This document shows, piece by piece, positions 37,402-57,108 of a stretch of DNA of 64,000 nt. This stretch comes from Coprinellus micaceus (taxonomy: Eukaryota; Basidiomycota; Agaricomycetes; Agaricales; Psathyrellaceae), in contig OX596344.1 in assembly GCA_951394405.1 (NCBI GenBank), positions 1,736,001 to 1,800,000 of the forward strand, in the 5' to 3' direction. How positions within the stretch are numbered: position 1 is the first letter of the stretch; each line of letters opens with the position of its first letter. Under the pieces are notes generated by a model. That model searched no databases. It saw only the letters and a program-made list of their open reading frames with translations, and was not told where the DNA came from. The position numbers were made by a program, and so were the translations under genes.

Positions 37402-37496
37402 AGGGTGTAGGGGGGGGGCGTGTGCGGTGTCGCCGACAGGTCGGCTACGACGAGGGTCCTCGCTCTCTCCGTGTCCAAGGGGAGGGGGATCTGGTA

Positions 37497-39367
37497 TTCT
37501 TGCAAGAGCCTCCGTGGACCCTCATTCGCCATGCTCCTTCTGCGCACAACAAGGAAGGTACTGTGGTGTGGGGTTCGCCCCGTCATCCTAAGTGCACCTG
37601 CATGGTCCCCCCCACTGAGCCAGGCACCCTCCCTCGGGTCATGGCCTACATAAATAAGAGATTGGACGTTCTCCATCCGACTTACCGTCGAGACCTCATC
37701 GACGATCGAGACGTGATGGTTATCTCCCTGTTCGCAGGCGACAAGCCCATGCACCTCACCAATGTGTACTCAGACGCCGACCACCGAGCAATTCGATTGC
37801 TCAATCGCCGCGCAGACTCACTCCCAGCCATGGACTACATGGCTGGAGACTTCAACTGTCACTCCAGGGAATGGGACAATGCCGTTCCAAACCGCGGAGA
37901 CACAGCCATCTTACTGCTGGAAACGGCAGCCCATCTAGGTGTGGAATACTCCCCACCTGTCAATCCAGGACCCACGTATGTGTCTTATGCCGATGTGAAC
38001 ATCAAGTCCGTAATAGACATGGTGTTTGTACAACCTGCCTACGTCCTCTCGGCTGCGCCGCTAAGGGACCAGGACCTCAAGGGGACCTCGGATCATTTTC
38101 CGCTGTCCTCAGTCATTAAGCTCAGCAACCATGCAGAGCGAATCAAGGGCCACACCCTCAAGGAGGATGCGGTGGCCCTGTTCTTTATGCAGGTTGAAAA
38201 GGAGATGCCCAGTCTCTCCAACCTGTACAATCTCAACACCGCAGAAGGAGTGGAGGAACTCTCTGTGGCGATTGAAAAGGTGTTCTCTGATGTGTGGCTC
38301 GCCCACTCTGAGGAGTACATCATTACCCCCCACTCAAAAAAGTGGTGGACTGACGAATGTCAGAAGGTGTACGACGAGTGGAAAGCGGATGACTCTGCTG
38401 AAACCCGTGGTGCATTTCGTCGTCTTGTAAAGAAGACGCGTCGAGACTTCTTTGATGAACATATCAAAGACATCTCAGAAACAGACAAGCGCCCCTGGGA
38501 CCTAAAGGACTGGGTCAAGGAGCGCAAGGACCCGCCATGCGAGGCTATCCAACATAATGGACAGCCCTGTCACAATCTCGACCAGCTTTGGGGCGCCTTA
38601 CATGGCACCTACAATGCGGCCAACGACCGACCGGTCGATCTGAGTCTACTGGACGAACTCCCCGACGAGCCCATTAGGGAGTGGCCAGTTTTCTCTCTCT
38701 TAGAAATGAGGCAAGCCCTGGAGGCATGCTCATCTCATTCTGCCCCGGGCCCTGACCACATTACATGGCAGCACCTGAAGTATATTTTCACCATACCTGA
38801 AGGTGAAAAGGTCATGATGGATTTGGCCAATGCCTGCATAAAAACCGGGCACTGGCCAAAACACTTCAAGGACTCGCTTTCGATTATCATACCAAAACCG
38901 AATAAGCTGTCCTACTCTGCCCCAAAGGCGTTCAGACCCATTGTGCTTCTGAACACCCTTGGTAAATTGGTTGAAAAGATGATTTCCAACCGTTTTCAGT
39001 TTGACATGATCAAGTACGATCTCGTCGATCCAAATCAGATGGGAGGGGTGCATCAGCGCTCCACCGAAGACGCAGGTCTATTCCTGACGCACTTGGTGCG
39101 GACAGGATGGGCAGCAGGACTCAAGACGAGTGTTGTAGCCTTTGACATCGCCCAGTTCTTTCCGTCCATCAACCACAAGTTCTTACTCGAGGTACTTCGC
39201 AAGCAAGACTTCCATCCTATGGTGGTGACCTTCTTTCAATCCTACCTGGTGGAGCGCCATACATCTTATGTGTGGAATGGCTCTACCTCAGAACCATTCA
39301 GCGTGGATGTAGGGGTGGGACAGGGCTCTGCCCTCTCACCCGTACTCTCTGCCCTTGTCATAGCTCC
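37497..39367 (+). mobile_element. LINE-12: EN and RT part, cut by a hAT-like element
   Basis: Plus-strand open frame from FLQEPPWTLIRHAPSA through EN (MDYMAGDFNCHS, TSDHFPLSSV), the linker, and RT (FDIAQFFPSINHKF, GVGQGSALSPVLSALVIAP). At 39368 it stops against the inverted 1220-bp element. The RT frame is intact up to that point but lacks YVDD and RNase H. The missing 3' half is not seen beside any other copy of the element in this window. The 5' end abuts LINE-11. Confidence 0.88.
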
Positions 39368-40587
39368 AAGTACTTTACACTCCCCCATTTTGCCTTTGGG
39401 AATCCAGTGGACATCCAGTGGACATTCTGGATGTCTACTGGACATTCACTGGCCTTTCTCTGCCAAATTTGCTCAAATTGTCCAGTGGTCGTCCAGTCAA
39501 TGTCCTGTATCAGCCAAAATTTCACTGGATTGTCCAGTGGATACTGGACGGTCCAGGATACATATCCAGTGGATGTCCACCCCCTTAGATCCACTGGACA
39601 TCCAGTGGAAGACCAATGATTTCCAGCCAATATCAGATATGTGGCTGTGCAATGTGGCTGTGCAAAATATTGAAGTAGTGTCATTGTGTGTCATTAATTC
39701 TGGAAAATTCATGAAAAATATGGAAAATATTCTGTTTGTATTTGTTTACTTGTATTTGTGTGTCCAGTCTGTGCAGGCCTTTTCATTTATGGTACTGGCC
39801 TGTTTCTTGGCATCCTCTGTCTACATTATAAGTACTAGTATTTCCACATCTGTAATGAAGTCAGGCTACATAAAACAGAAAGACAAAAGACAATCACTAC
39901 AACAATATTTCTTAAAGTTGTCCAGCTTGACAACCTTTGGCGCTTGGAGAGCAAGAATGGTGCAGTGGAGGGTGGCAACAGTGTGACAACAGTGTGGCAA
40001 CACATTGCCAGAAATCAACAAGGAAAGCTTGATAGTATACCATTGTAGAGCTGAGTCTTGTGTGTGAAAAGTGGGGGTGGCCCAAGTTCTCAAGCCCAGG
40101 CCCTAAAGTTGGCAGGGAGGAAAAACAAGACAGATTGAAAAGTATGAAATGGGACAAAGCTAAATTAAGGAAAGGAGATGCAATGAAAGATTGCTTTTAT
40201 ACTCTTTGTGGTTGTGTTATCTACAATTTGAGATACTTAGCACTCCAACCACCCAGCCATGAATGCCATTGCCAGGTGATTCCATCAAAACCTCCACCCA
40301 GCAGGGTGGCATGATTTCAATGGACACATTAGAGGTGGCCCCTTGGAGTTGACCATTGGCAAATACTTTCTATTTGCAAAGTCCACTGGATGTCCAGTAG
40401 TCAAGCTGGAATCCACTGGACATTGACTGGACTGTTTGAGTGCTGAACTGGACACCACTGGATCTCACTGGATTCCACTGGACATTGACTGGACATCCAC
40501 TGGATTTGCTAATGTCCACCGGATTCCACTGGATTTTACTGGTCTACTGGACATCCTGCAGGACATATGGGGGAGTGTAAAGTACAG
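39368..40587 (-). mobile_element. 1220-bp hAT-like element, copy 2 (inverted)
   Basis: Same length and sequence as copies 1 and 3, in opposite orientation. The left terminal base differs (A for G). Its own flanks do not match each other: left ATAGCTCC, right GATACCAG. The right flank is the reverse complement of the 8 bp flanking copy 3 on its right (CTGGTATC, 55967-55974), which points to recombination between copies 2 and 3. Confidence 0.92.
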
Positions 40588-41135
40588 GATACCAGCACCG
40601 AACCAAACCCTTGAAGGTCAAAATCTACACTCTGTTTTGGCAGAGTTGAGCTATTATGGGGATCTTGTCGCCATACAGCACCCTCACCATGAACTTTGTC
40701 AGCCATCTTGGTGGTGTAGGCTGTGCCTATCCTGAGCTCACCTTAAATGGTGTGGGGATGATGACAACGAGGGAGGCAAAGCAATGGTCTGTGGTGAATA
40801 GGAGGGTGTACGAAGAGCGAGGCTTTCATTTTGCAGATGGTTTTTTTGATTCGCGGGTGTACAAGATCATTTTTGGAAAGGTCCATAACTGCAGTGCCTT
40901 TCGTTGTTGTCCCGCAGGTATTGCGCAAAGGTACACCCGTTCCCGTGCTGGTTTCCTATTTGTTTCATTCAAGCTATCCCAGGACTTGGGCTCAGTGATC
41001 CCTCCATTGTACTGGGGCTTCATGCCCAAGGCTGGAGGGGTTGTATACTTGCCGAGGGGATTTACTGAATTGATTAACACTCCATTTCAATGCCTGTACC
41101 AGTATCCTAATAACTTAGGTATTGATCCTATTTAA
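40588..41135 (+). pseudogene. Host gene, C-terminal half (split by transposon and inversion)
   Basis: Reads AFRY(QHRTKPLKVKIYTLFWQS stop)AIMGILSPYSTLTMNFVSH, then CAYPELTLNGVG, EERGFHFADGFFD, HNCSAFRCCPAG and FLFVSF, ending at TAA 41133-41135. This layout matches an uncharacterised Agaricomycete protein family as I recall it: a nucleotidyltransferase-like N-terminus, then a STxxMNF(I/V)S block, a CAYPxLTL block and a C-terminal HxC...CP block. The N-terminal half of such a gene lies at 55967-57108 on the other strand. One in-frame TGA lies near 40650 (possibly CGA originally). Homology should be confirmed by search. Confidence 0.6.
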
Positions 41136-42282
41136 TGTCATATCAATAGGTCGTGTTTCATAGTTGAACTTATGCTAAAATCCATAAATGCTACCTTTAT
41201 TGACTACTCAATCTTGCTAGGTCGTGAGCACGAAGCGCATGAACATGGATCGGAATTGGCACCTTCATCGCTCTTCCATCACTCACTCAACTGGTGATGG
41301 TAGCCCCATATCTGTATCCATCTATGCCCCTCTCTCCTTCGCTTTCCAGAGTCTGTCCATCTTCATCTAGCCATTGAGTCTATCTTGTTGGCGTTGGAGG
41401 TTGGTATCTGTGGCAGTGGCGACTTCTGGGTTTTCATGCTACTTCGGTTCCCCTGCCCCTTTTTGCCTGATACATTGCGCTTTGTCTCATCTGCCTTATA
41501 CTGTGGTGAACTGTCAGGTGGAGCCCAGAGGCTCTGAATTTGTAGATGAGGCTTGTTTATCGATGTCTGATGCATTACCCTACTTTATGCAAGGTTTGAG
41601 TAGAATTTGGGTGTTTCTTAGTCTTTCATCTAGTCGTTTTTGGATGTATCCTGTGACCAGCTCTTCCTGTTTGGTCCTCTCGGACACCCTATATATTCGG
41701 GACCTTCACCCTACCGGTAGATTACTTGTGCCCCTCTCCACACTGGTTTTATTTGTCGTATCTTACTCATTTCCTCTACCTCTACCTTGCTCTACTCTAG
41801 TATCTAGCCATGCTTTCCTCTACGTTCAAACTTACTCTCGACCAAGTCATCCAGCTCCTTGGTAGGGTGGGCGTTCGAGCGGACCCTGTTCAAGCCCTCC
41901 TTCTTCTTGGCAGCATTGGCGCTCAACCAGAAGAGTCTATCCAGTTCGCTCCCCCGTCCATCGCTGTTGGAACCCCATCAGGAGTTTCCCCTCCCTAAGA
42001 TATTATATTATTTGTGTCGGTACTACCTTATACCCTCACACCAGGAGAAAAATGTGTACAAGTGTTGCAGCCCCTATGATCGCGGAAGATCATGGACGCT
42101 TCGGTTTGCGAAATACACAAAGTGTGCATTGACGCTACTTACGTTCACCGCCATCAAGATTGGGCGAGCCCTCTAAGTTACGTGCCTGACGATAATTAAA
42201 AGTGTTGCAAAAACCCTCCACAGTGCCGCACCTGAAAATGGCGCACATGGTGGTAGAGTTGATCAAGTGTGCAGTGGCTACC
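41136..42282. other. No recognisable gene
   Basis: Downstream of the split-gene stop. Open frames here (for example 41374-41865) have low-complexity, hydrophobic, non-family-like composition, and no splice pattern or repeat that I can support is seen. Confidence 0.5.
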
Positions 42283-42470
42283 CTACCATATCATTGACGG
42301 GACACTTTAAGGCTCCCGCTCAGTATAAGAGACTTGGCCAAGTTCGAGCAGGCTGGCAAGCAATTGACCGAGTCTGCCAGCTCTATCTGACAATATAATT
42401 GACGAGACACTTTGAGGATCCTGCCCAGTGTCGGTGAGCCAGCCAAGTTCAAGCAGGCTAGCAAGCCTCG
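42283..42470 (+). repeat. Diverged direct repeat, unit about 75 bp, offset about 110 bp
   Basis: ATATCATTGACGGGACACTTT ... GGCCAAGTTCGAGCAGGCTGGCAAGC and ATATAATTGACGAGACACTTT ... AGCCAAGTTCAAGCAGGCTAGCAAGC are the two units. They share order and spacing with a few substitutions. Function unknown. Confidence 0.7.
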
Positions 42471-42607
42471 CGCATTCTGAGAGGCGGCTGTCAGGGCCAC
42501 CATCCCAGTACAGAAATGTCGTCCTTGGCGCAGATGGCACCAGGTATCGCCGATTTCATTCTTTCCTCAATTCTCAAAGACAGGTAAGCGGATCTCTGTC
42601 TCAGGTC

Positions 42608-42955
42608 TCAAACCCACCCTGAATGCGCTTCTCGCCCCCACCATGTATGGGTGATCACACCGACCTGGCCAGGGTTCCCGAGGTAGTAGAACGGGCAAGG
42701 GGTGTGGTTCTTGTGGGCTGGCCAAATGTCGGGCTCAATGCTGAGGAATGAAGGTGGACGGTCACTCTGGGTAGTAATGACCATTTGCAAAGCATTCTTA
42801 CTCCGGCTGCTGATATGCGGATGCCTGGATGAGGTGAGAGGTGCTTCTCGCGATTGGTAGTCCTTGTCGTGATGATCATAGAAGAGACTGAGGGAAATCC
42901 TTATATTCTCCATTCCAACCCTGTCCCAGCTGGCTATGACGCTCAGCACACTCAA
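42608..42955 (-). CDS. Possible coding exon, unrecognised
   Basis: Open frame whose composition is protein-like (SLSLFYDHHDKDYQSREAPL ... IEPDIWPAHKNHTPCPFYYL ... GVITHTWWGREAHSGWV), ending in a stop at 42608. I recognise no family. It lies just downstream of, and on the same strand as, the DUF6698-like gene, but that gene has its own stop at 43025. It could be the last exon of a separate or decayed gene. An upstream acceptor-like CAG is present near 42975. Confidence 0.35.
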   Translation of the reverse strand: MSVLSVIASWDRVGMENIRISLSLFYDHHDKDYQSREAPLTSSRHPHISSRSKNALQMVITTQSDRPPSFLSIEPDIWPAHKNHTPCPFYYLGNPGQVGVITHTWWGREAHSGWV

Positions 42956-43024
42956 TTTGGTAGCGCGTCTGTCTAAATGACAATAGACAACAAATATTAT
43001 TAGAACCTATGAGAATATTAACGG

Positions 43025-44467
43025 CTATCTACTAGTTGATCCACCCCCGCGGCCGTTCAATGCCTGGAGAGCGGTGCGCTTTGCTTTGATCTTTGAGAGG
43101 GTGCTCTCCGCTGGGACAACTCGCGTCACGTTCAAGAAGGAAGGGAATATTTGTCGATTCCACCACGCAATCAAATCCTTCACCTCGTCCTGCTCTTCAG
43201 GATCTTCGAACAGCTCAAGTACAGACGTGTAGAATGTCTCTGAGTCTGTTTCCTTGTCCGTTCTGCAGAACACACTCGCGGAGGAAAGAGCAAAGCGAAC
43301 CTGTGAACAGGTTGGAGAACGGGTAAGAATTTGTGTTCGGATCCGATCACTGAGGAGCGTGCATGACATACCTGGGTAGCGATGTATGCTATAGACACTG
43401 GGGTGACACAAGTCATGCCATGAATACGTGCATTTCCCGATCTAGTCGCCTTGGGATTGTTGTTGATGGAGCTCGGGGATGTGAAAACGTGTTTATATGC
43501 CTGGAAAGTGCTGGCAGTGAGCGGCTCAAACCCAGGGACCCCAGGACAACTTGGACTCACCGAAATAAGGAGGCGGCTGCGGAAAAGACCCCTCCATGGT
43601 TCTTCAGGGTCGTATCTCTCGTCCCAATACACGAAGATGGGCCAGTGATTCCCAGGAATCAATAATTCCTTCTTCTTGAGCTGTCCCTTTATTCTATGCA
43701 CACAATCAGTCTTGAACTGGTGAGTAATCTTGAGAAACTCACTCAGGGTCCTTCCAGTCTATGCCCGGAGGGCACAGCAAAAATCCCGTCCTTTCATGGT
43801 TGAATCCTCGACCGAGCTTGGAGTTCCTGGCTATTGAGGGACGAAGCGGCTCCCCATCCGCTGGTGATATCCAGTCGATGACGACGCCCTTCAGACTCTT
43901 GGTGTCATCAGAGCGAGTGGAGGAAGCTCCCTTTTGGAGCTATCCAGAGCCCTTGCTATGAGCACTTGCCCAGTTAAGAATAAAGCATGAGACTCACCAG
44001 GGTTGCGATCGAAATAATGGCATCCCCATCGGTCTCCTCAGCAAATAGACGATCCTGTAAGCCTGGCACTATCTTCAGCAGTCGACGGAATACTCGCCCT
44101 TCTCGACACTCTCTTGGTAACAAACTAAGTCAGAAATGTACAGAGTTGGGGTACTAATATGGAACACGAACTGCTGCGTCTTAGGGACCTCATTGTCGTC
44201 CATGGCGAGGCCAGTGAGCAGCAGTGCCTGCATATTAGTGAACATGAAGACGGTCCTCCCAAAGTGTCGACCGTGACCTATAAGGGGGTCTGCAATAGTC
44301 CTATTATAAATCAGTGGACAAAGCCCAAAGCTCAGCATGAACACAACTCACAGCCGTTTCCTTGGACCTAATTCGAGTGGGTTCGTGATGTGCAGCAATC
44401 TCTTCTTCCCCGCATGAGTAGGTCCGGTAGGCGGTGGTGGAACGTTTTGGTCGTTGCTCGACGCCAT
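43025..44467 (-). CDS. DUF6698-like host gene, 7 exons, apparently intact
   Basis: Minus-strand exons 44467-44352, 44300-44172, 44112-43998, 43939-43743, 43693-43561, 43500-43372 and 43300-43025. All six introns are GT-AG and 48-71 nt long. The spliced length is 1095 nt, giving 364 aa with no internal stop. The protein reads MASSNDQNVPPPPTGPTHAG ..., GHGRHFGRTVFMFTNMQALL, GRVFRRLLKIVPGLQDRL, DDTKSLKGVVIDWISP, RGFNHERTGFLLCPPGIDW, NHWPIFVYWDERYDPEEPW, AYKHVFTSPSS, ATRSGNARIHGMT, VRFALSSASVFCRTD. These blocks are characteristic of the DUF6698 family, abundant in mushroom genomes and of unknown function. The exon 2 donor is the least certain junction. Confidence 0.82.
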
Positions 44468-44490
44468 GGATGGGAGATAGACTCGGTAGG

Positions 44491-44592
44491 TACGAGGAGG
44501 AAGGGCTGAGAGCTCGTATGAAGAGGAAGGGGAGGCGGTACGAGGAGGAAGGGCTGAGAGCTCGTATGAAGAGGAAGGGGAGGCGGTACGAG
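44491..44592 (+). repeat. 48-bp tandem repeat upstream of the DUF6698-like gene
   Basis: Two perfect copies of TACGAGGAGGAAGGGCTGAG... (44491-44538 and 44539-44586) plus a 6-bp start of a third. They begin 24 bp upstream of the ATG, so probably in the 5' UTR or promoter of the minus-strand gene. Confidence 0.9.
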
Positions 44593-45121
44593 TCAAGGCA
44601 CGGCAGTGTGAGGAGGAAAGGGCTTGGGGAAGCTGTGGACGTTGGAGGTCGCTGTTGCAGTGAAGACAATGGTGGCAAGTTGGTGGCAAGAGGGCAGCAT
44701 CACTGGCATAATATATGGGCGACGATCAATTATGACATATCAAAATCAATCTCAACTGCGTATCGAACTTGGAAGCCCCACCGCCCGTTCTGGCGTGAGT
44801 CGGGGAGGTCATTGTGCCAGAGCGCGTGCTTTGAGAGACCGACTGGGTCCTCTAAACTGTGAGAACGCACACTCTCTTACGCGCCTTCCCGTGGCGTCCA
44901 CCCTTCATAAACAAAAACAAAACCTAAAGTACGTTCGGGTAGCAGAAAGCGATTTCAAGTTGTGGGACTCGTCGAGGCACAAACATGTCGTTAATTTGAT
45001 GGAATACATTTTGGTGTGAATAAGAAATATAGCGATATAGAGAAACTTAAAGCTTAAAGCTTCAGCTTCAATCGTTGATGGTTATTTACGAAGCGATGTA
45101 GGCATGTGTCAATATCAATTG
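44593..45121. other. Intergenic, nothing recognised
   Basis: Presumed promoter side of the DUF6698-like gene. A/T-rich towards 45060. No ORF, repeat or RNA gene that I can support. Confidence 0.5.
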
Positions 45122-45418
45122 TTAATGGCCCGATCGCATGACAAGAACGCAAAGGATACAGATAGATAGGATGCATCTGAAGATGGAGCCAAGTCCAAAA
45201 GACAGTGCACGGTGGGGAGGGCTTGTGGTAGATGTCAGACCATCTAGTCTCTCCATGTTTCTATCAACGATCCGCACTTCCAACTGTCCAGCCCTCCCAA
45301 ACACGATCAATGCCCACTCGCCGACGTTGGAAGCCTGGAGCTGAGAGATTTGGGTGGAGGCGGCATTGAGGAAGGTTCGGAGATTCCAGCTATTTGCAAT
45401 ATTGTAGACCTTTTCCAA
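45122..45418 (-). CDS. Possible coding exon, unrecognised
   Basis: Open frame beginning (I)LEKVYNIANSWNLRTFLNA, continuing ASTQISQLQASNVGEWALIV and FGRAGQLEVRIVDRN, then a C-terminal hydrophobic tail. An acceptor-like CCCCAG sits just upstream near 45424, so it may be a terminal exon. The first 60 residues look protein-like; the end does not. Could belong to the gene at 45731-46400. Confidence 0.3.
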   Translation of the reverse strand: MEKVYNIANSWNLRTFLNAASTQISQLQASNVGEWALIVFGRAGQLEVRIVDRNMERLDGLTSTTSPPHRALSFGLGSIFRCILSICILCVLVMRSGH

Positions 45419-45730
45419 AATCCTGGGGTCCGCACCTTTTTGTTAGGTAAACCCTAGATTTGGTAGAATGACGGAACCTGACACCTGCCCACCCCACATC
45501 ACTGTTGTGCCTTTGGGCATCGCTCCTCGCTATCTTGTCGCCATGGGTCGCTCTTTCCGGCCAACAGGGACAGGGTGGTAACTCCCCATGTTATTCCAGC
45601 AAAGTCACCTACGCAGGAAATCGCAGGCGGGCGGTGGACTGGCGGGGAAGGGCCCAAATTCGGACGCGGAGCCTGTCATGGGGACTCTTGGAGAGGGTGG
45701 GGTAGGTAGGCGCGTGTCCGAACTGGGGGT

Positions 45731-46400
45731 TTATGTAAGAAATGGCGGTGTCCCCTGCATTTTCAAAAGGTCTACGATTTTGCAAACAGCTGTCAAAAGG
45801 CCACTGTTGAGAGGCACGGGCCTAACCAGATCCTGATTGGAGGGAGCTATGCCCATTGTTTGGTTGGCTGGATATTGGGGGGGTATGGAGGTAGGAACCA
45901 TGGGGGTTGGAGGCTGCTGCTGAAGATTCCCGCCTTGATTGACTCTGTAGGATAGCTGGCTCTGACCTTGGGAGACTTCATCCACACCCTGGTTGGTCGT
46001 ATCAGCCGTGCACTTGCATATCATGGGAGATGAATGGGGATTATCTACTCACTGATGAAGGCACTGCGGTGCTACGTCCAGCAGCTCCACCAAGTGCGAT
46101 TTCGAAGCTGACTTGGTTAAACTCCACCCCGCAAACAGCTGTAGATATGGATGGCATATTTGAAGATTGAGTAGAGGAATGCTGATGGGTGTGGCTCTCT
46201 TCGTGGATTGTGGTGAGACCGGTTTGGGGTGGGGAGCTGGAGGGTTTGTACCACGGCGAGAGGGCGCACACCGCGGGGTGTCTGAGACGCGGTGCTCTGC
46301 AATATTGGCAGGCTGGTGCCCTCCTTCCGGAGGGAGTGCGAGCCCTCTCTGGAGGGGCGCTTGCACTCCTCACGACGACCCTGTTGATCTTTGCACTCAT
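45731..46400 (-). CDS. Hypothetical protein, two-exon model
   Basis: Exon 46400-46053 (MSAKINRVVVRSASAPPERA ... CQYCRAPRLRHPAVC ... FEIALGGAAGRSTAVPSS), intron with GTGAGT donor and ACCAACCAG acceptor preceded by CTGAT, then exon 45988-45731 (GVDEVSQGQSQLSYRVN ... CKIVDLLKMQGTPPFLT). The phase is kept and gives 201 aa. The protein is proline/glutamine-rich with one CxxC...HxxxC cluster. No family recognised. Upstream exons cannot be excluded, and the first ATG is a choice. Confidence 0.38.
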
Positions 46401-46733
46401 GGGGGTCGAACTTTGCGATGGCGGTGGTAGGCTGATTGGAGGTACTCAGGTAATGAAGGAGGATATGAATCGTTCAATGTGGGGGAGTATTTCAAGAACC
46501 GCACAACCCGCCACAGACACCGCACACATCTTGGAGATCCAAATGAGGCCCAGCGCAGGATGACTCCATGCTTTGGATAGATGCGCTTCAAGTCCTAGGC
46601 GCTCGAGGAGCCCTGTCGGCAAGTAATAAAGCACATCACAGAAGATCCTGCACAGCCGCAGACTGTTGATCAGTTTACACCAGAGGTGCGGCTCTGTCCA
46701 ACCCCCCGTGTTCAGTCTGTCATCTGTCAGGAC
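46401..46733. other. Intergenic, nothing recognised
   Basis: Between the hypothetical gene and the TIR element. Short ORFs (for example 46397-46591) show no family-like features. The last 8 bases (GTCAGGAC, 46726-46733) form the left TSD of the element to the right. Confidence 0.5.
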
Positions 46734-47562
46734 CAGTACTTCACACTCCCCCACTTGTCTAATTGGACTCCATTGGAGTCCAGCCACCCCATTGGGTATC
46801 CAGCCTGGGGGGGCTGGGGTCCATTGGAGTCCAGTGGAAACCCAATGAACCCCAACCAAGTCTAGCCCACCCCAGCCCACTCCAATTGGACTCCAACCCA
46901 AGTCCAACCAAGTCCAACCAACTCTGTCCAGACTCCAGGGTGAAATGTTTGGTAGTGATTGGACTCCAACTAGACTCCAATTGGAGTCCAAGGAGACACT
47001 AGCCACATCTGTCTTTTATGCAACTGTAGGCTGTGTGAGAAATCATTATCTTTCCCACAGTTGTCACAAGTTATCATCACACTCATATCAGACCCCCTGA
47101 ACGCCAATATAGTAACTGAATCAAATTACCAGGCTTTAGATTTTAGATCAGCCCTGACATCATATCTCATAAACAGGTAAGATAGGATTTTTTTCAGTGT
47201 TTTTCCAGATTTTTCCAGAATTAATGTGGCGGAATAAGGTTACATGTCAAATTTGTCATAATAATTATGATGTCATATTTCCCAAACAAGAATGATGGGA
47301 ATATTTTCGGTAATTTTCCCGATTTTTCCGGAATTAATGTGACAGAATGATATCATATGTCAAAATAGCACAGCCACAGTTTCCCATACCCATGCTCCTC
47401 TGCTTGAGGCGCGCAGCAAACTAGCGCAAACAGAGTCGACCTGATGGTCGACTCCAGTGGATTGAAGCGAGCAAGAGCGGGGAGGTTATAATGGCTGAAG
47501 ATGATGTGTGAGGGGGATGGTGGAGGTGGAGAGAAAATGTAGCGAAGTGCGAGCAGGACGAG

Positions 47563-48561
47563 TTAGGCGGGGTTTGACCGTAATCGGGACAGTTGAAGCT
47601 CGGCACGTAATGCCGGATGTTCGCGCACATACAGCTTCCAAGCCTGTGAACTCCATCGACCGAGGGGCATAATGATGTCTTCAGGGAGACCGAGTTTTGC
47701 GTAGAAGGTAGCCCCACCAGCTCTAGGTGAGTGGCCACCGTAGTCATGGGTCATGAGTGCGAAGAATTTGCTGTCGAACCAGTTTCGGTTCGGCACCTTC
47801 CCGTTTTGGCAAAGGAATAATGCTGGGTGGGCCCCATGAATGTTGTCGCGTTGCGTAGTGTATCGGAGAAGGAGTGAAACGGGGTCGGCGATAGTTTGGC
47901 GTAGGAGGATGATTTCGGAACCGGTGTAGAAGGGGTCGCTTTTATGATAGGGTAGGTGATAGGCTGCTTTGTGGTCGGGAAAGGATAAAGATGCGCGTTT
48001 GATGACTTTGCGCCAATCAAACAGGCGAGGGTCGTTATTCACAATCAGCTCCCCACTACGATGGCATGCATAGAAGCAGCAGGAGAGTATAGTGGCGAAA
48101 AGGAGGTCGTCATATGAATTGGAACGGGTGGCGATGTCGACAAAGGATTGGAGATGAGTAGTGAGGAGGGGCAACTTGCGCTTTATCGGGTCTGCGCGGA
48201 CCTTCTTTACACCACGAATAGTGGTCTGGACGTCAGGGTGGGCCCGATTGGCGTCGAAGTCAGGATACTGCGATCTGAGGAAGTGACGTATACCCGTAAG
48301 ATATTTGGGTCCAGACTTGATGGTGAGCGATGTATAAGCGATATAACGGGCAAGTGTGGAAGGTGTCGGGTTGATATCGAGGGAGTAGAGCCGGCAGAAT
48401 CGGAGGTAATTTCTCAGACCGGTGGTGTACCCGAGGATCGAAGACTTTTCAAGTGCGTTAAGCTGCAAATGGCGTACACGCTCGTCAAGTGTTTGCAGCG
48501 ATAGAGGAGGATGGTCCACGTCCCGTGAACCTCCTCCTTTGCTCAAAAGGCTTCGCTCCAT
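47563..48561 (-). CDS. Tyrosine recombinase of the YR retroelement
   Basis: Full-length integrase-type recombinase of 332 aa. It would insert the circular cDNA by site-specific recombination rather than with a DDE integrase. Catalytic residues are visible: the first Arg in CHRSGELIV (about residue 160), the H-x-x-R box in GGHSPRAGGATF (about 286), and the Tyr nucleophile in WSSQAWKLYVREH (about 313). The N-terminal SAM-like domain (LQLNALEKSSILGYTTGLRN, FCRLYSLDINPTPSTLARYI) is complete. The start codon lies 19 nt inside the RT ORF. This is the diagnostic gene of the DIRS order. Confidence 0.88.
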   Translation of the reverse strand: MERSLLSKGGGSRDVDHPPLSLQTLDERVRHLQLNALEKSSILGYTTGLRNYLRFCRLYSLDINPTPSTLARYIAYTSLTIKSGPKYLTGIRHFLRSQYPDFDANRAHPDVQTTIRGVKKVRADPIKRKLPLLTTHLQSFVDIATRSNSYDDLLFATILSCCFYACHRSGELIVNNDPRLFDWRKVIKRASLSFPDHKAAYHLPYHKSDPFYTGSEIILLRQTIADPVSLLLRYTTQRDNIHGAHPALFLCQNGKVPNRNWFDSKFFALMTHDYGGHSPRAGGATFYAKLGLPEDIIMPLGRWSSQAWKLYVREHPALRAELQLSRLRSNPA

Positions 48562-50423
48562 GGCGCCGGCAATAGTTGTCGAGGTGGCTCGAATGTGCGG
48601 ACGCGGTCGAGGGGGTACTGTTTTGTGTAGTCGTCAAGTAGCATGCGAGATAGCATATCGGCACGGACATTGTCCTTCCCGGCGATGTGGCGAATACGGA
48701 AGTCTATTCTGGAGCGTACAATGATGGAAGCAATGGCGCGAACAGGACCTTGATGCAGTGGGGTATGAGCGGCCAATGTGTTGAGGACTTGAACAGAGTC
48801 CAAGCTGTCGGAGTGTAATAACAGACATTTTGGAGGATTAGTCATTGTGGCGACATGATAGACCGCTGATACGATAGCGACGAGTTCGAGGAAGAAGATG
48901 TCGACCGGTTTATGGCCGGAGTCAGACCTGATCTGGTAGACGTAGCCGTTCCTACCAAAACAGAATGCAAGGGCGTTGCGTAGGCTTGCGTCGGTCCACA
49001 TCTCCATGTCCGCGTCACTATCGTCCCAATGACCATCGTCGATGAAGCGAACACCGATGGAGTCATTCAAGAGGGACTTGAACCATTCGAGATCCTCGTG
49101 GACCTCCTTGTTAAGGTACACGGGTTTAGCTTGGTGCTCTTTCGCTGCCATCTTCCTGTACATCTCGGTCAATGCAGGCCTTCCCCAAGGAAGAACATTC
49201 AAGCCCCAGTTGAGGTAGCCTGCGAGGCGTTGCCAAGTCTTCAGTGGCGCCTTCCTTTCTGGACTGGCGAGGAATTTGGTGATAGATGAGTCGAGTTGTT
49301 TGACTGAGTCGGGCGAGAGTGAAATCGAGCCTTGGGAGATGTCAACCCAGAAGCCGATAATCTTCAGATGTTGATCCCACTCCTGCTTCGGCTCATCCCA
49401 GGGACATCCTATAGCATCCCACAATCTCAACAGATCTACCTGGCCCTTCGGTCGCAACTGCCCCTTAAACCAGATCAGGTTGCCTGCACGGTCGAAGCCG
49501 AAGAAGTCGTCCATATAAACATGGAGTGACCGTATCCCCAGCTTCCGTACCGCGATCCAGCACATCAAGGCGGAAACAGAGCACCATATACGAGGAGAAG
49601 CTCTATTACCGAAGACCAGGCGTCGAACCACATGACCCTTTCCATCGATGATGACTATTTGTCGAAGTTGGTAGATAGGGTGAGCGGGTAGGTTGAGGAA
49701 CGCTGAAGCGACGTCGGACTTGAATAGAACGAAGTCGTCCTCTGGGAAGTCACGTTTGGCTTCGTGAAGCACTTGGGCAAAGGTTTTCATATCGTCATAG
49801 CGAACCTTCGCTTCCGTTTTAGGAATGTTGTCGTTGAGCCCAGAGGCGGAGTGGTCGGTAATGATTCGAGGTTTCTCTTTCTGCCAGACAACGAATAAGG
49901 GTGATGACTGTGCGCCATGGGGTAAAGAGTCTGGAAGGTAGAAGCCTTCGGACCAGTGGCCTTTCCCAACCTCCTTGTTGCGGAATGCACGGATCGCGTC
50001 GAGGTCGTCTTCTTCCGAAGCAAAGTTGTCCCTCAACTCGGTCTTCAGTAGCTCCCATTCTCCTGTGTCGAAGGGCCAGAAACCCTCTCGTAACCCTTTC
50101 ATTACTGATTGAACGAACGGTTGGTTGGGATGGTCTTGGAGTAAGCCTTCAAAAGCTTCAACGTTGAATGGGGTCTCGACACGTATAGCATCCCCCATGC
50201 TCTCGATAGATTGTCGAATGCGAGGATCATTGACTAGATCAGCTGGCGGTGAGGGTAGTGGGGCAGCAGTCTCGGTGTTGAGAACAGATGGTGAGATAGA
50301 ATTATGAAGTTGAGATGACCATACAAATCCACGACGATACCGAGGAGCATATAGCTCCTCCCCCTTCCTCTTTTCCCCAAACGACCTAGGCTCTCTCCCC
50401 ACCGCTGCCACCCTCGCGCTCAT
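48543..50423 (-). CDS. RT-RNase H polyprotein of the YR retroelement
   Basis: About 626 aa from an ATG at 50423 that overlaps the end of gag. The longer open frame upstream of it only shadows gag. RT blocks: KPRIITDHSASGLNDNI, DFVLFKSDVASAFLNLP, RLVFGNRASPRIWCS and catalytic LHVYMDDFFGFD (near 49510). RNase H blocks: MWTDASLRNALAFCFG, FLELVAIVSAVYH, LLLHSDSLDSVQVL and RHIAGKDNVRADMLSR, giving the D-E-D-D set. No methyltransferase domain follows. It converts element RNA to DNA; the recombinase downstream integrates it. Confidence 0.88.
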   Translation of the reverse strand: MSARVAAVGREPRSFGEKRKGEELYAPRYRRGFVWSSQLHNSISPSVLNTETAAPLPSPPADLVNDPRIRQSIESMGDAIRVETPFNVEAFEGLLQDHPNQPFVQSVMKGLREGFWPFDTGEWELLKTELRDNFASEEDDLDAIRAFRNKEVGKGHWSEGFYLPDSLPHGAQSSPLFVVWQKEKPRIITDHSASGLNDNIPKTEAKVRYDDMKTFAQVLHEAKRDFPEDDFVLFKSDVASAFLNLPAHPIYQLRQIVIIDGKGHVVRRLVFGNRASPRIWCSVSALMCWIAVRKLGIRSLHVYMDDFFGFDRAGNLIWFKGQLRPKGQVDLLRLWDAIGCPWDEPKQEWDQHLKIIGFWVDISQGSISLSPDSVKQLDSSITKFLASPERKAPLKTWQRLAGYLNWGLNVLPWGRPALTEMYRKMAAKEHQAKPVYLNKEVHEDLEWFKSLLNDSIGVRFIDDGHWDDSDADMEMWTDASLRNALAFCFGRNGYVYQIRSDSGHKPVDIFFLELVAIVSAVYHVATMTNPPKCLLLHSDSLDSVQVLNTLAAHTPLHQGPVRAIASIIVRSRIDFRIRHIAGKDNVRADMLSRMLLDDYTKQYPLDRVRTFEPPRQLLPAPWSEAF

Positions 50424-51864
50424 CTCTGCCTCCTCCTTTGCCACGGCGAGCCTTGAGTGCAACAAGACACGCCTGTTTGTCTTTGGCCTGGTGTCGTTCA
50501 CCACATTCTGAGCAGAATCCGTGGACTCGACCATTCGGACAGGGGTCATCATGGCAGAGCCCATAGTTCCAATTGAAGCAAGGAACCGTCGGACGCTTTG
50601 CCCATGGAGCCAAAGACGATTGAGGATAAGGCCGCTTAGTCGCAACCCCCAGTGGAGCAGGGCGTGAAGTGCCCGCCGAGCGAACGATGCTCGCCATGCT
50701 GAACTGTATCGTCGATCCTCTGTCATCCATCCTGAACGGCCTTTTAGCGTAGTGAACTCGAACGTCGGCGTCGAAGTCGATGGCGGTGGAAGGGTTAGGT
50801 GTGACTCTGAACAGTTCCTCAACAATGTCACGATATCCTTCCAGTTCCCGCGCTCGATGCGGATACAACACGACCACGGCATCTTCCCACACCTTGAACA
50901 CACGCATCCACTCTCCTTCATCTCGAACGACCTTCCTTCCCAGCACCTGGTCACTCTTGACCAACGATAACCCTCCTCCAAACACCGTGGCTTCGTCGAT
51001 AGGATGGAACCGTGCCTGAGGATCCATCGCCGCATGGAGCTTACCGAAGTCGACGTAACCGTCTTGTACGATAAGCTTCCAAAGGCTGCGCGGCATAGGT
51101 TGAATTCGAGGCATAGCCTGCATCCTATCGATAATTGCCTCAAGGGCTCGCTCGGTAGCGTAGAGCTGGCGTAAACGCCACGTTGCGGCAATGTGCACGT
51201 CATCGTGGTGTTCAAGAGAGTAGTTGCCGAGATGGGGAGCTCCTTCCAACACGTTGGACGGAATGCCTCGACCCGAGGAAAAACCAGATGTTCCGGGTGA
51301 GCTTTTATCTGCGAGCAAACGGAGTGTGTACTCCAGGTCCTTGGATGACGATTCATGTCCATAGTTCGCAGCGTCGTGCTTGGCCCGGATTCCCTGGGCA
51401 CGGTTGACGATAAGCGCCCACGCGACTTCCTCAGCAGCTTCGGCCTCCTTCTCCTTTCGTTTACGTTCTCGCTCGGCAGCCACATTATCCCGCTTCTTCC
51501 TAAAGTCCGCCAACTCATCTCCTTCCAGACCTTCTGGCGTTCGTCTATCATCTTCGTCGCCCCCAGTACCTTCTGCACCTTTCCCTTTGGGATCGGAGAC
51601 TGGTCCGCGTTTCGACATAAGTTGATCAAGCTGGTCGAGGTACACTTCGCATTCACCCGTTGAAGCGCCGGACTCGCGGAGCTGTTTGACGAGGTCTTCT
51701 CCGGAAGACATACGCCCTTCAGCTGCAGCCTCAACAAGCTCTTGGCATCTTTGAGCGCGGAGGCGAATGGTTTCAGTGTCAATGTTCCTCGACCTATCGA
51801 TGTTATCGCCTGAGACATCGCCGACAACGGTCCCGGACGAGGCAGCATGGGACGAGCTTGACAT
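50386..51864 (-). CDS. Gag-like protein of the YR retroelement
   Basis: 492 aa from the ATG at 51864 (MSSSSHAASSGTVVGDVSG). An in-frame extension to 52023 is possible but has low-quality sequence. The middle has a highly charged coiled coil (FRKKRDNVAAERERKRKEKE). The C-terminus carries a CCCH/CCHC-like cluster, CFNWNYGLCHDDPCPNGRVH then FCSECGERHQAKDKQAC, usual in fungal DIRS gag proteins, and an RG-rich tail. Likely packages element RNA. The stop at 50386 lies 38 nt inside the RT ORF. Confidence 0.82.
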   Translation of the reverse strand: MSSSSHAASSGTVVGDVSGDNIDRSRNIDTETIRLRAQRCQELVEAAAEGRMSSGEDLVKQLRESGASTGECEVYLDQLDQLMSKRGPVSDPKGKGAEGTGGDEDDRRTPEGLEGDELADFRKKRDNVAAERERKRKEKEAEAAEEVAWALIVNRAQGIRAKHDAANYGHESSSKDLEYTLRLLADKSSPGTSGFSSGRGIPSNVLEGAPHLGNYSLEHHDDVHIAATWRLRQLYATERALEAIIDRMQAMPRIQPMPRSLWKLIVQDGYVDFGKLHAAMDPQARFHPIDEATVFGGGLSLVKSDQVLGRKVVRDEGEWMRVFKVWEDAVVVLYPHRARELEGYRDIVEELFRVTPNPSTAIDFDADVRVHYAKRPFRMDDRGSTIQFSMASIVRSAGTSRPAPLGVATKRPYPQSSLAPWAKRPTVPCFNWNYGLCHDDPCPNGRVHGFCSECGERHQAKDKQACLVALKARRGKGGGRDEREGGSGGERA

Positions 51865-52831
51865 AAGATGATATTGAAGATGGTGTAATAGATAGCGACG
51901 AAAATACGATCTGGGAGGTTCTGTGCGGTGACAAGGAAGGCCTCTCAGCGATGCTCGAGAGCTGGTGAAAACTACGACTGACCTGTGCGGCAGCAAGGAA
52001 GGCTGAGACTTTCCGTAGGCCACACAGGCGACAAATATGCGGTCACCTGTCTCATCCTCGTCAGCTTCCGCTTATATCAAGCACTGACGAAGATGGCAAC
52101 CACATACCTGCTGCGGCGCGACGTGGTAATGCCAGTCACCTGAGAAGATGGCCATGTTGACCACTGGGTGAAGATGGGGACTCGCTTGGCAGAGGTTTCC
52201 GAAACCCCTTCGCTCTCGCTTTCGCCGTTACGCCAACTTGCCCCACTTGGGTCATGGGTCCCCACTGGAACTCCATTGGAGTCCAATGACATTTTGTCTA
52301 ATGGACCCCAAATTGCAACCCCAATGGTGTCTTGTGAGTCTAGGCTGGGGAAACTGTTATTTTTGGTCCAATTAGAGTCCAATGTGTGAATTTTGGGTGG
52401 TAGATTGGGGTTGGTTGGGGTGGGCTAGGCCCAATGGCATAGAATTTGGGGGGCAGTCTACCCAACAACCCCAATTGGACTCCAATGGACCCCATTGGAT
52501 ACCCAATGGAGTCCAATTAGAGAAGTGGGGCACAGTAAAGTACTTGTCGGGACCACCGACTCCCATTCGCACTGCCGTCTCGCATGAAGTCAGGGGAGTG
52601 CACCTCAAGGGTGTAGCTCTGGCGCATCTGACAATGATGCGCCGGTGTCGCTTATCAGGGAGTCGGCTAAATGCTTGCATAAAAGGCAGAGGAGGATACA
52701 GTTGGCGATGCAAACCGTTTCCCTCAATCACTCCGCCCTTCCCCTCACCCAAGTGCCAACTGGGCCCCTACCTTGAACTATCAACGTCTTCTTCAAACCT
52801 TGTAAACACACCTCTCCATCCCTCACTCTCA

Positions 52832-54219
52832 ATGGCTTCCCCGAACCCTTTCAGACCGATACATGCCATGACCACGACTCCTGTGATTCGAGGTTCTATG
52901 TGCTACGAAGATGTGTCCCCGATTGTGGTCGCCACCTACCGGTGAGGGAACGCTAAATTCCGCCTTTGCCCTTACTCCTCCTTACATGCTTACATGACGG
53001 GGAATGAGGGAACACCCATAGGGACCCACAGACTCGGGTCCAGAGACTTGGAATCCCCAGGTTCTCCAAGTCAAGGTGAGTTCTCGCAAACTTATATGTA
53101 TTCAGTATTTGGGGGTTGTAATATTAATCGCTGGCTCTTGTTGTTCTCAAATCACAGGGAGTCTGAGTCAAGGCCAAGTGGTCGTCGCAAGGATGGTCTC
53201 TTCTCCTGCAGACACACCTGAAGTCAATATCCTCCGATCTATTCCAGGTGTTCACATTTTCTGGTTGTCCGAGTCGCAAGACGAGCCTCACACTCCGCGT
53301 AACCTGATTGTGGAGCGGCCTACGACCCCACTCTCGAATGGTGGCGAATCTGAGTCGCCGGGGCTCGGATCTTTGTCACTGATGCTGTCCAACGACCTCT
53401 TTCAAGTCGATGGGGCTGAGAATCCTGGAGGTACAGGGTCTTCAAGGCTTCTGAGGATCTGGTACCGCAACTAACGCAATGTGATAGATGGCCACACTGC
53501 TTCAGATCTCAGTGGCTCGGAACCGAAGCTCGGGACGCCCTGTGAAGCTAACTACGAAAGCCTTCAAGCTCCCAACCCCCTTGCCAAAGTTGATCACGGG
53601 GCTCTCGCCCACTATCATGCAGTTCCAGTGGAGGTTGGGCACCGTCTCCGCTCTCCATACCTTCTCAGATCGAAGAACCGGAAGGCGACCGCTTCACGGA
53701 TTGAGGTGCAAGCGCGGGCTGTCGGTGAGTCCTGTTTTGCATCAGTGAAGCGCACAAGTTTTTGGGCCGCAAGTCTCACTCATCTTTCCAATAGGCCTGC
53801 CCTTCGATGACCGCATCCTCAAGGAGGCGGGTGTGAAGAGGTACTACCCGGGCTCGGTTGCGCCGGTCACCAACCTCAGGCTGCTGTACAACCTCGGCTC
53901 AGTTCTTTGTCTCGGCATTACCATCCACCAGTATGGGAAGATTCTAAGACACTGCATGCACTGCACCAACTACATCTTCGGGCAGTGGGTGAAGAAGCAT
54001 GACTGTCGCGGGACCGCCATCGATGTCCACACAAAGGACTTTTCTTTGACCACTGAGTTGCTGAAGAATGGGTCCCCTGGGTTGACTATTGCCAATGTGA
54101 AAGGCCTTTTTGTCGTGTGTGATATGTGCCGAAGGATGTACATGGGGAGATGGGATGGGCACACGTGCCCTCTGAGCCCGGATGACGATGATGTTGAGGA
54201 GGACATTCTCATGGAGTGA
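52832..54219 (+). CDS. Host-type gene with two CxxC...C zinc-finger-like motifs, 5 exons
   Basis: Exons 52832-52941, 53032-53075, 53158-53430, 53488-53724 and 53795-54219. All introns are GT-AG (57-90 nt) and all phases agree. Spliced length is 1089 nt, 362 aa. The protein starts MASPNPFRPIHAMTTTPV, has a Ser/Pro-rich middle, then a conserved-looking C-terminal domain (LPFDDRILKEAGVKRYYPGS). The two motifs are HCMHCTNYIFGQWVKKHDC and VCDMCRRMYMGRWDGHTC, with an acidic tail (DDDDVEEDILME). I recognise no named family. It may bind nucleic acid. The strict phase agreement over four introns argues that it is an expressed gene. Confidence 0.75.
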
Positions 54220-54746
54220 ATATCGCCACACACATGAGGTGTGGCTCCCCCGAGCTCCGGGTCAGACTATACAGGTCCTTTTCAATCATCTTTAGTTTAC
54301 TATTACTCGCACATACATTATTTGCTACAACTTTAATTCAATAGCCCGTCATCATCGTCCAAAACGGAGTCCCTGGAGGTGTCGAAGATATTATTTGTTC
54401 AAGTTAGAACGTAATGATAATGATAATGGGGAACTCTGAAAAGTACATGCTCTTGAGGGGGAAGAGATAGATAATGAGTATTACATGATAGTGATACAAC
54501 AATGAAAGCTGAAGTCATTTACCATCGGGCCAGAGAGAATTCCACAAGGTATTGAATGATACCGATAAGAGAGAGGGCTCAGAGAAGAAACACTGTCCTA
54601 TAATGCGAAGTTTACGACCAAGGGAAGACACGGGGGGTTGGTACCAACGGTGGGGGTCATACATCGGGGAGAAAGAGAATTCGGAAATCCGACATTGCAT
54701 TTCGTGCTGGTATTCAAAGGGTCGGTCCTGCGGTGCCCCATGAGAC
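54220..54746. other. Intergenic, nothing recognised
   Basis: 3' flank of the zinc-finger-like gene. A/T-rich with a short TAATGATAATGATAATGG run near 54415. No ORF or repeat supported. After undoing the proposed inversion this segment would lie next to LINE-12. Confidence 0.5.
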
Positions 54747-55966
54747 CTGTACTTTACACTCCCCCATATGTCCTGCAGGATGTCCAGTAGACCAGTAAAA
54801 TCCAGTGGAATCCGGTGGACATTAGCAAATCCAGTGGATGTCCAGTCAATGTCCAGTGGAATCCAGTGAGATCCAGTGGTGTCCAGTTCAGCACTCAAAC
54901 AGTCCAGTCAATGTCCAGTGGATTCCAGCTTGACTACTGGACATCCAGTGGACTTTGCAAATAGAAAGTATTTGCCAATGGTCAACTCCAAGGGGCCACC
55001 TCTAATGTGTCCATTGAAATCATGCCACCCTGCTGGGTGGAGGTTTTGATGGAATCACCTGGCAATGGCATTCATGGCTGGGTGGTTGGAGTGCTAAGTA
55101 TCTCAAATTGTAGATAACACAACCACAAAGAGTATAAAAGCAATCTTTCATTGCATCTCCTTTCCTTAATTTAGCTTTGTCCCATTTCATACTTTTCAAT
55201 CTGTCTTGTTTTTCCTCCCTGCCAACTTTAGGGCCTGGGCTTGAGAACTTGGGCCACCCCCACTTTTCACACACAAGACTCAGCTCTACAATGGTATACT
55301 ATCAAGCTTTCCTTGTTGATTTCTGGCAATGTGTTGCCACACTGTTGTCACACTGTTGCCACCCTCCACTGCACCATTCTTGCTCTCCAAGCGCCAAAGG
55401 TTGTCAAGCTGGACAACTTTAAGAAATATTGTTGTAGTGATTGTCTTTTGTCTTTCTGTTTTATGTAGCCTGACTTCATTACAGATGTGGAAATACTAGT
55501 ACTTATAATGTAGACAGAGGATGCCAAGAAACAGGCCAGTACCATAAATGAAAAGGCCTGCACAGACTGGACACACAAATACAAGTAAACAAATACAAAC
55601 AGAATATTTTCCATATTTTTCATGAATTTTCCAGAATTAATGACACACAATGACACTACTTCAATATTTTGCACAGCCACATTGCACAGCCACATATCTG
55701 ATATTGGCTGGAAATCATTGGTCTTCCACTGGATGTCCAGTGGATCTAAGGGGGTGGACATCCACTGGATATGTATCCTGGACCGTCCAGTATCCACTGG
55801 ACAATCCAGTGAAATTTTGGCTGATACAGGACATTGACTGGACGACCACTGGACAATTTGAGCAAATTTGGCAGAGAAAGGCCAGTGAATGTCCAGTAGA
55901 CATCCAGAATGTCCACTGGATGTCCACTGGATTCCCAAAGGCAAAATGGGGGAGTGTAAAGTACTC
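54747..55966 (+). mobile_element. 1220-bp hAT-like element, copy 3
   Basis: Same 1220 bp as copy 1, same orientation. Left flank CATGAGAC, right flank CTGGTATC (55967-55974); these do not match. The right flank pairs, as reverse complement, with the right flank of copy 2 (GATACCAG, 40588-40595). That pair would be the true TSD of one ancestral insertion. Confidence 0.92.
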
Positions 55967-57108
55967 CTGGTATCGGAAAGCTTTGAGGAAGGGATGTGAA
56001 AGTTGTGTGTTGGGGTTGGAGGGGTTATCTGGCGGGAGTGTATGTATAGTTGCACATCAAGACAAGGAACGGGTTCAACCAGGGAAAACCATGGTATGCA
56101 CAGATGAAGTTGAGATTGTCTGGTTGAGGGAACACTCCGGCTTTTGACACAACGTGAAGAGCAACCAAACCCCCGATAAAGGCCCTGCACATCTTCATGA
56201 AGTACATGGTATCATCTATGTCAAGGCCAAAATGCTTGAGTTGAACGTGGACCTTGCACAGAAGGGCGAACTTCAATTTGTGGCGCTCTACACAAGAGGC
56301 GAGGGATAAGTTGCTGAGTGAAGCCAGGTCCATACAGATACACGACTCATGGCGCATCTCGTGGGGCATCTGGGACCAAATGGCAAAGCCTACAGTAACA
56401 AAGGGGGGAAAAGAAGTTATATGCGCTGTACATCACGACAGGGGGCAAAAGACAGGAAAACTCACACATCGTAGAGCTCAAAATAGGAGGCAGCGATAGT
56501 TACGGTCATAGGCTGCTCAGTTTACCAGCTAAAGAGGGCCGAGGAAGATGTCAGCACATTGTACCATGGTGAAGCAGATTGAATGAGCCCTACAGCTTTG
56601 TCCAGAAAATCATTGGCGAGCTGCTTATAGGAAATGGTTTGGGGGTACCACCTGACGATTGAATGCACATTAATATGGCCAACAGTGATCGGATTCAGGA
56701 AGTAGGAATGAATTGAATACCTTATCAATGCCGATACCAGTGCTTCTAAATTGCTCCAGTTGACAGGTTACTGGGATAACCTCGTTGCCAAGTACCTTTC
56801 TCTCACCCTAAGTCATGAATCAAAGAAGCAGAATTTCGAGGGCGTAGAAGCTCACATTATCCACCCACCAAGGTGGTCAGCAGGCTGATCACATTAAAAA
56901 AAAAAAAAAAAAAGGGATCTAGGACCAATACAGACATACTGACATCAACACCTCGACTTGAGAACCCAGAAGCCAAGAGCTTGGAATTGAAGTCAGTCAC
57001 CAAGTGTGAAGGATCATTGAACTTGCGCAGAGGGATATGAATGACCAAGAGGGAGGAGGATTGGATTGGTCCAGTCAGGCCTATCGACGCCACCAACAGC
57101 GAAGACAT
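55967..57108 (-). pseudogene. Host gene, N-terminal half (split by transposon and inversion)
   Basis: Minus-strand exon-like segments: MSSLLVASIGLTGPIQSSSL (from 57108); SIVRWYPQTISYKQLANDF (about 56670); PMTVTIAASYFELYDV before a GTGAGT (about 56480); and a longer exon with LASLSNLSLASCVERHKL, DDTMYFMKMCRAFIGGLVAL and PDNLNFICAYHGF (56369-56025). FMKMCRAFIGG...DNLNF resembles the GxS-like start of the nucleotidyltransferase-like Agaricomycete family whose C-terminal half lies at 40588-41135. The two halves do not join in one clean frame, so the gene had an intron here or was already decaying. Exon limits not resolved. Confidence 0.55.

Follow-up and report, generated by a model that had tools for sequence, protein, structure and literature searches.

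How did two almost identical transposon copies, lying in opposite orientation 14.2 kb apart, come to share a single target-site duplication (TSD) between them? The question is raised by a stretch of 64,000 nucleotides of the Coprinellus micaceus genome (C11:1736001-1800000, called the window below), taken from an assembly of 50.3 Mb in 17 contigs. Copies 2 and 3 of a 1220-bp non-autonomous element with terminal inverted repeats (TIRs) bound a block in this window that an initial annotation had read as inverted, and the coordinates and letters which it gave for the copies and their flanks proved correct on re-reading. The inversion is very likely real, because the crossed TSD and an independent piece of evidence, a host gene split between the two breakpoints, both indicate it. 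Its probable origin, in our view, is one event of reversed-ends (alternative) transposition, which would have inverted the block and removed the DNA between the two elements. The features discussed are collected in Table 1.

Table 1. Positions of the elements, flanks and genes discussed (window coordinates unless a contig is named)
Feature	Position	Strand	Description
Copy 2	39368..40587	+	Non-autonomous TIR element of 1220 bp; A-end at left, B-end at right; base 1 is A, not G
Copy 3	54747..55966	-	Same 1220-bp element, orientation opposite to copy 2; B-end left, A-end right
Copy 1	26924..28143	-	Control copy; own TSD intact on both sides, CTTGCGAG (element orientation)
Copy 0	C11:1725409-1726628 (L051)	+	Same element, outside the window
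Terminal sequences			Typical of the 1220-bp element family: GAGTACTTTACACTCCCCCAT and CTGTACTTTACACTCCCCCAT
Crossed TSD half	40588..40595	+	GATACCAG, at the copy 2 B-end
Crossed TSD half	55967..55974	+	CTGGTATC, at the copy 3 A-end
Orphan flank, copy 2 A-end	39360..39367	+	ATAGCTCC, inside the reverse-transcriptase frame of a long interspersed nuclear element (LINE)
Orphan flank, copy 3 B-end	54739..54746	+	CATGAGAC (GTCTCATG in element orientation)
Inverted block	40588..55966	.	Extent under reversed-ends transposition; contains copy 3; 40588-54746 is the inter-copy part
Split gene, N-terminal part	56028..56432	-	Profile positions 20-93 of 337; beside copy 3
Split gene, C-terminal part	40650..41132	+	Profile positions 188-276 of 337; 161-aa frame beside copy 2
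Gene H, C-terminal half	54518..54745	-	76 aa; cut by the copy 3 B-end; open up to the element
LINE-12 frame	37404..39367	+	Interrupted by copy 2

The element and its copies

The element begins with GAGTAC and ends with GTACAG; its two ends are called here the A-end, GAGTACTTTACACTCCCCCATTTTG, and the B-end, CTGTACTTTACACTCCCCCATATG (reverse complement). Four near-identical copies (0 to 3) are found inside 67 kb of C11, while genome matches outside these four that cover most of the element length reach at most 96% identity. Copies 2 and 3 are indeed the same element in opposite orientation, as first annotated. They differ at the first base only, which is A in copy 2 and G at the other 23 of the 24 A-ends read. 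At the left junction of copy 2 the sequence runs from ATAGCTCCA straight into AGTAC, the terminal G of the A-end having gone by deletion or substitution, and copy 2 may on that account have been unable to move alone. Copy 1 is equal to copy 3 in sequence, and copy 0 differs from copy 3 by one single-nucleotide polymorphism.

The crossed target-site duplication

The ends tabulated are all 50 sites in the genome where the terminal 19-mer is matched exactly (41) or with one mismatch (9), of which 24 are A-ends and 26 are B-ends. A further 32 ends with two mismatches lie outside this table; three of them, which are not sequences of the second family described below, were left unread. Copies were called complete when both ends face each other 1 to 5 kb apart, which gives 20 copies and leaves ten ends. 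Two of these ten form a pair 16.4 kb apart (C11:2304334-2320782) that has no TSD and was excluded from the complete copies.

Eleven of the 20 complete copies have a TSD of their own (ten perfect, one with 7/8 bases), and the ten perfect cases set the TSD length at 8 bp. The remaining nine, namely copies 0, 2 and 3 and those on C8, C3, C1:4611k, C4, C12:2176k and C13, have none. The flanks of copy 2 are ATAGCTCC and GATACCAG, and those of copy 3, written in the same element orientation, are GATACCAG and GTCTCATG. On the forward strand the latter GATACCAG reads CTGGTATC, its reverse complement, as the initial annotation had noticed. The two termini that share the TSD are one B-end (copy 2) and one A-end (copy 3), one from each copy. 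When every A-end was paired with every B-end, exact 8-mer matches were seen in 11 of 624 pairs. Ten of them are within one copy and the eleventh is the crossed pair, the sole exact match between different copies; by chance, 0.0095 exact matches would be expected from a formula and 0.039 from random 8-mers of the window. No partner flank for ATAGCTCC or GTCTCATG was found at any of the 50 ends, and these two 8-mers differ from each other, so a second TSD pair was not exchanged between copies 2 and 3.

A host gene split between the breakpoints

The second line of evidence comes from the sequences just beyond the crossed TSD halves. A profile was built from eight sequences of one gene family (the public protein P0001, a C9 homologue and sequences from six other loci in this genome) and compared with every stop-to-stop segment of 20 aa or more that the window contains, 1887 in total. 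Only two of them reached E<0.1, an N-terminal part and a C-terminal part, one at each breakpoint. The C-part has E 2.7e-12 (43.2 bits) and the N-part E 5.8e-7 (25.6 bits), while the third-best segment, a piece of the gene H described below, has E 0.19; among 5000 composition shuffles of each part, none scored above 10.5 bits for the C-part or above 10.2 bits for the N-part. We regard the C-part as firm and the N-part as good but not overwhelming.

The C9 homologue is a 389-aa open frame with 41% identity to the C-part frame over 87 residues. Used as a query, its protein finds C9 itself, the six other loci and the C-part frame in the window, and it has one relative among public proteins, P0001; the C-terminal half used alone found no relatives in the protein database. 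Comparison with this open homologue, the six genome loci and the public protein places both pieces in one gene family, the one as its N-terminal and the other as its C-terminal part, and the possibility raised at the outset, that intact homologues might reveal two unrelated halves, was not borne out. When the flanks are joined across a single GATACCAG, both parts lie on one strand, as had been proposed, and in the correct order, with a gap of 235 bp (about 78 codons); the same interval spans 72-138 residues in the eight family members. The host gene looks degraded, since a TGA stands between the junction and the long C-part frame.

The orphan ends

At the A-end of copy 2, the interrupted LINE-12 frame is a reverse transcriptase (RVT_1). 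In two other LINE copies of the window, which have no such interruption, the corresponding site is ATAGCTCCAATCATG, and none of the family B-ends read carries the LINE-12 partner flank.

At the B-end of copy 3, the C-terminal half of gene H, another host gene, is 58-61% identical to two paralogues on C6, and as a query it finds 10 places in the genome, gene H included. The N-terminal half of a C6 paralogue finds eight, seven of which adjoin their own C-terminal half and the eighth of which, on C4, has 30% identity. None of the eight is near gene H or resembles its missing N-terminal (5') half, and this query did not detect that half elsewhere in the genome.

Gene H and a neighboring Cys-rich gene form a convergent pair (window 53749-54745). 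All five paralogous loci read (C12, C4, C11:1252k and two on C6) show this arrangement too.

Origin of the inversion

We first consider a single event of reversed-ends transposition. In the ancestral order, LINE-12, copy 2, a segment S, copy 3 and gene H would have been followed, further on, by the host gene, with both copies in direct orientation. In the present genome the unique flanks are each represented a single time. Transposase supplied in trans would cut the two ends that face each other (copy 2 B-end, copy 3 A-end), and both cut ends would be inserted jointly into GATACCAG of the host gene, about 14 kb past copy 3. Since the opposite end of each copy remains attached, everything from copy 3 up to the target would become inverted. 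S, reaching from the 3' half of LINE-12 to the 5' half of gene H, would be lost, and GATACCAG would be duplicated, with one copy at each breakpoint. The published signs of such an event are TSDs at the breakpoint termini, loss of the inter-element fragment, and one element inside the inversion with the other just outside, as given in the sections of PMC8225341 consulted; the legend of Fig. S1D in PMC2775673 likewise derives an inversion with a deletion from two copies on one chromatid. The locus has this pattern, with a single shared TSD, orphan ends and an apparent loss of inter-element DNA; the deletion at the breakpoints is deduced from the missing partners.

This reading changes the initial annotation in two respects. 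The inversion itself is supported, while its extent, first placed at 40588-54746, would become 40588-55966 and include copy 3; it is drawn from the crossed TSD and the split gene. Also, a second event on the LINE-12 side had been thought necessary. This is probably wrong, because a single reversed-ends transposition, with loss of the DNA between the copies, accounts for the two orphan ends as well as for the crossed TSD.

The main rival is ectopic homologous recombination between an inverted copy in the host gene, bearing TSD GATACCAG, and a TSD-less copy that lay between LINE-12 and gene H after an earlier deletion. We hold this to be possible but rather unlikely. In its favor, the two copies are inverted, 14.2 kb apart and identical but for one base, and the Galileo elements of Drosophila provide a precedent (PMC2775673, in the portion consulted). 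According to the same source, recombination between inverted copies exchanges both TSD pairs and deletes nothing, whereas here the second exchanged pair was not found among the 50 ends and the missing partners point to a deletion. Simple ectopic recombination as a complete account was therefore rejected on the unexchanged second pair, and the fuller version requires an extra, separate deletion. With that deletion, it would give the same orphaned non-participating ends and undetected gene H N-terminal half that fit the loss of inter-element DNA under reversed-ends transposition. Rejoining across one GATACCAG also fits a target that was unbroken before the event, but recombination predicts an identical empty site.

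Several observations count against reversed-ends transposition. The strongest is the absence of a TSD from 7 of the other 18 complete copies as well (those on C8, C3, C1:4611k, C4, C12:2176k and C13, and copy 0), so that recombination in which one partner had no TSD beforehand would leave the same picture. As the two copies are identical except for one terminal base, chimerism gives no signal. An autonomous element bearing these ends was looked for and not found. The N-part of the split gene falls to E 5.9e-4 with a profile of three near members, and with five far members it comes third at E 0.022, a gene H segment standing ahead of it at 0.017. Finally, two weak matches to the gene H C-terminal half (on C2 and C10) likewise have no N-half match, so the lack of one is, taken alone, nothing unusual in distant members of this family. 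A rough likelihood ratio of reversed-ends transposition to recombination is 1 : 0.39, which is not decisive; the remaining preference for reversed-ends transposition is one of parsimony, with one event against two.

An assembly error, in which identical 1.2-kb repeats were joined in the wrong order, is very unlikely. Four near-identical copies within 67 kb do invite such an error, but re-pairing the flanks of copies 0, 2 and 3 never restores more than one TSD, 17 contigs for 50.3 Mb suggest reads longer than 1.2 kb, and a wrong order does not explain the missing half of gene H. That no inversion took place, and two independent insertions have matching flanks by chance, was rejected as next to impossible: two of the four flanks do match nothing among the 50 ends, but 0.01-0.04 exact matches are expected against the one crossed match seen, and the split host gene independently requires the same join.

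A wider idea is that the nine TSD-less complete copies among the 20 arose largely from transposase joining the ends of different copies, so that alternative transposition would be regular for this family. We think this doubtful. If it were true, non-autonomous elements would be chromosome shufflers, and copies 2 and 3 would be the case in which both breakpoints survived. One of the nine, copy 0, has unrelated retroelement sequence on each side, the right side matching a LINE and the left side being, to judge from a translated motif, what we take to be a copia element; it is another possible rearrangement product.

Transposase and superfamily

The perfect TSDs on ten other complete copies would fit a cut-and-paste transposase acting on these ends, but no autonomous member of the family was found. 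The label "hAT-like" in the initial annotation agrees with these 8-bp TSDs (ten perfect copies and one with 7/8 bases), while the superfamily was not confirmed, as Zisupton likewise produces TSDs of 8 bp (PMC12730594, in the part consulted). Between the paired ends of the 20 complete copies and the 16.4-kb pair, there were none of the 27 hAT-dimerisation matches and none of the 107 KDZ matches of the genome, both totals being lower bounds; an autonomous relative may have ends beyond 0-1 mismatch. In one of the distant 2.1-kb copies (L062; L060 is 98% identical), three of the frames match no Pfam family. In a 4.9-kb copy on C2, a frame in the middle has a DDE_3 match below the Pfam cut-off (E 1.2e-5), and this frame probably belongs to a nested, unrelated transposon.

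Other contents of the block and a second TIR family

The DUF6698 gene annotated inside the inverted block was recovered at window 43180-43755 on the minus strand (PF20414, E 2.4e-29). Together with the many KDZ genes of the genome and the abundance of LINEs in the left half of the window, it suggests a mushroom-forming basidiomycete. The "YR retroelement" annotated there could not be verified under that label, with no Pfam family above the cut-off in three of its frames. It is nested in a copy, about 1 kb long, of a second, related TIR family (window 46734-52546), whose ends are CAGTACTTCACACTCCCCCAC and GAGTACTTTACTGTGCCCCAC. Window positions 46734-47392 and 52246-52544 align with a sibling of 1 kb on C2 (L089), and the flanks of the window copy, GTCAGGAC and GTCGGGAC, agree at 7 of 8 bases.

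Another copy of the second family, at C1:3070020-3076113 (L076, L092), is broken about 409 bp from one end, and that end lies inverted about 5 kb away. Crossed 8-mers, TAAGGGTC and GACCCTTA, are left there, with the break inside the element and not at its end. The region also contains a repeat with a spacing of 9988 bp, and the 2325 bp that were compared are 100% identical. A KDZ gene that lies on C1 close to a second-family end was set aside, for no link between the two could be made.

Comparison with known systems

When compared with inversion 2z3 of Drosophila buzzatii, our locus also has inverted transposon copies at both breakpoints and an exchanged TSD. In the portion of PMC2775673 consulted, however, the Galileo inversion has chimeric copies, an exchange of both TSD pairs and no deletion, whereas here one pair is exchanged and a deletion is indicated.

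The reversed-ends inversions and duplications of maize Ac/fAc (PMC8225341, PMC3744419, both in the sections consulted) offer a further comparison. There, as here, an 8-bp TSD is common to termini of two elements, the inter-element segment is lost, and one element lies within the inversion and the other just outside. Unlike the maize cases, ours concerns a fungus and a non-autonomous element of unassigned superfamily, and is reconstructed from one genome rather than from a progenitor-product pair. Among the open-licence papers looked into, in the parts available, the term "reversed-ends transposition" led to maize work or to citations of maize work, and fungal papers mention alternative transposition in general terms. 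The locus is a clearly marked natural candidate for a fungal reversed-ends transposition, and a single assembly suffices to read it, since the target duplication, the orphaned ends and the split gene can all still be seen. If it is confirmed, fungal non-autonomous transposons would count among the active causes of inversions accompanied by deletions, and such events could be sought in assemblies through one-sided TSDs.

A fungal parallel is a new inversion in protoclone S1B of Marasmius oreades, in which two MarorhAT-10 copies lay head-to-tail about 2.5 kb apart (PMC9674265, as far as consulted). The phrase "alternative transposition" does not occur in the main text of that paper, nor was a TSD analysis of the event seen in the parts consulted. 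Like the event proposed here, it took place in a mushroom and involved two head-to-tail copies; one copy was turned over and the sequence in the middle was lost. It differs in having arisen anew in culture, where the sister clones are known. A similar outcome therefore does occur in such fungi.

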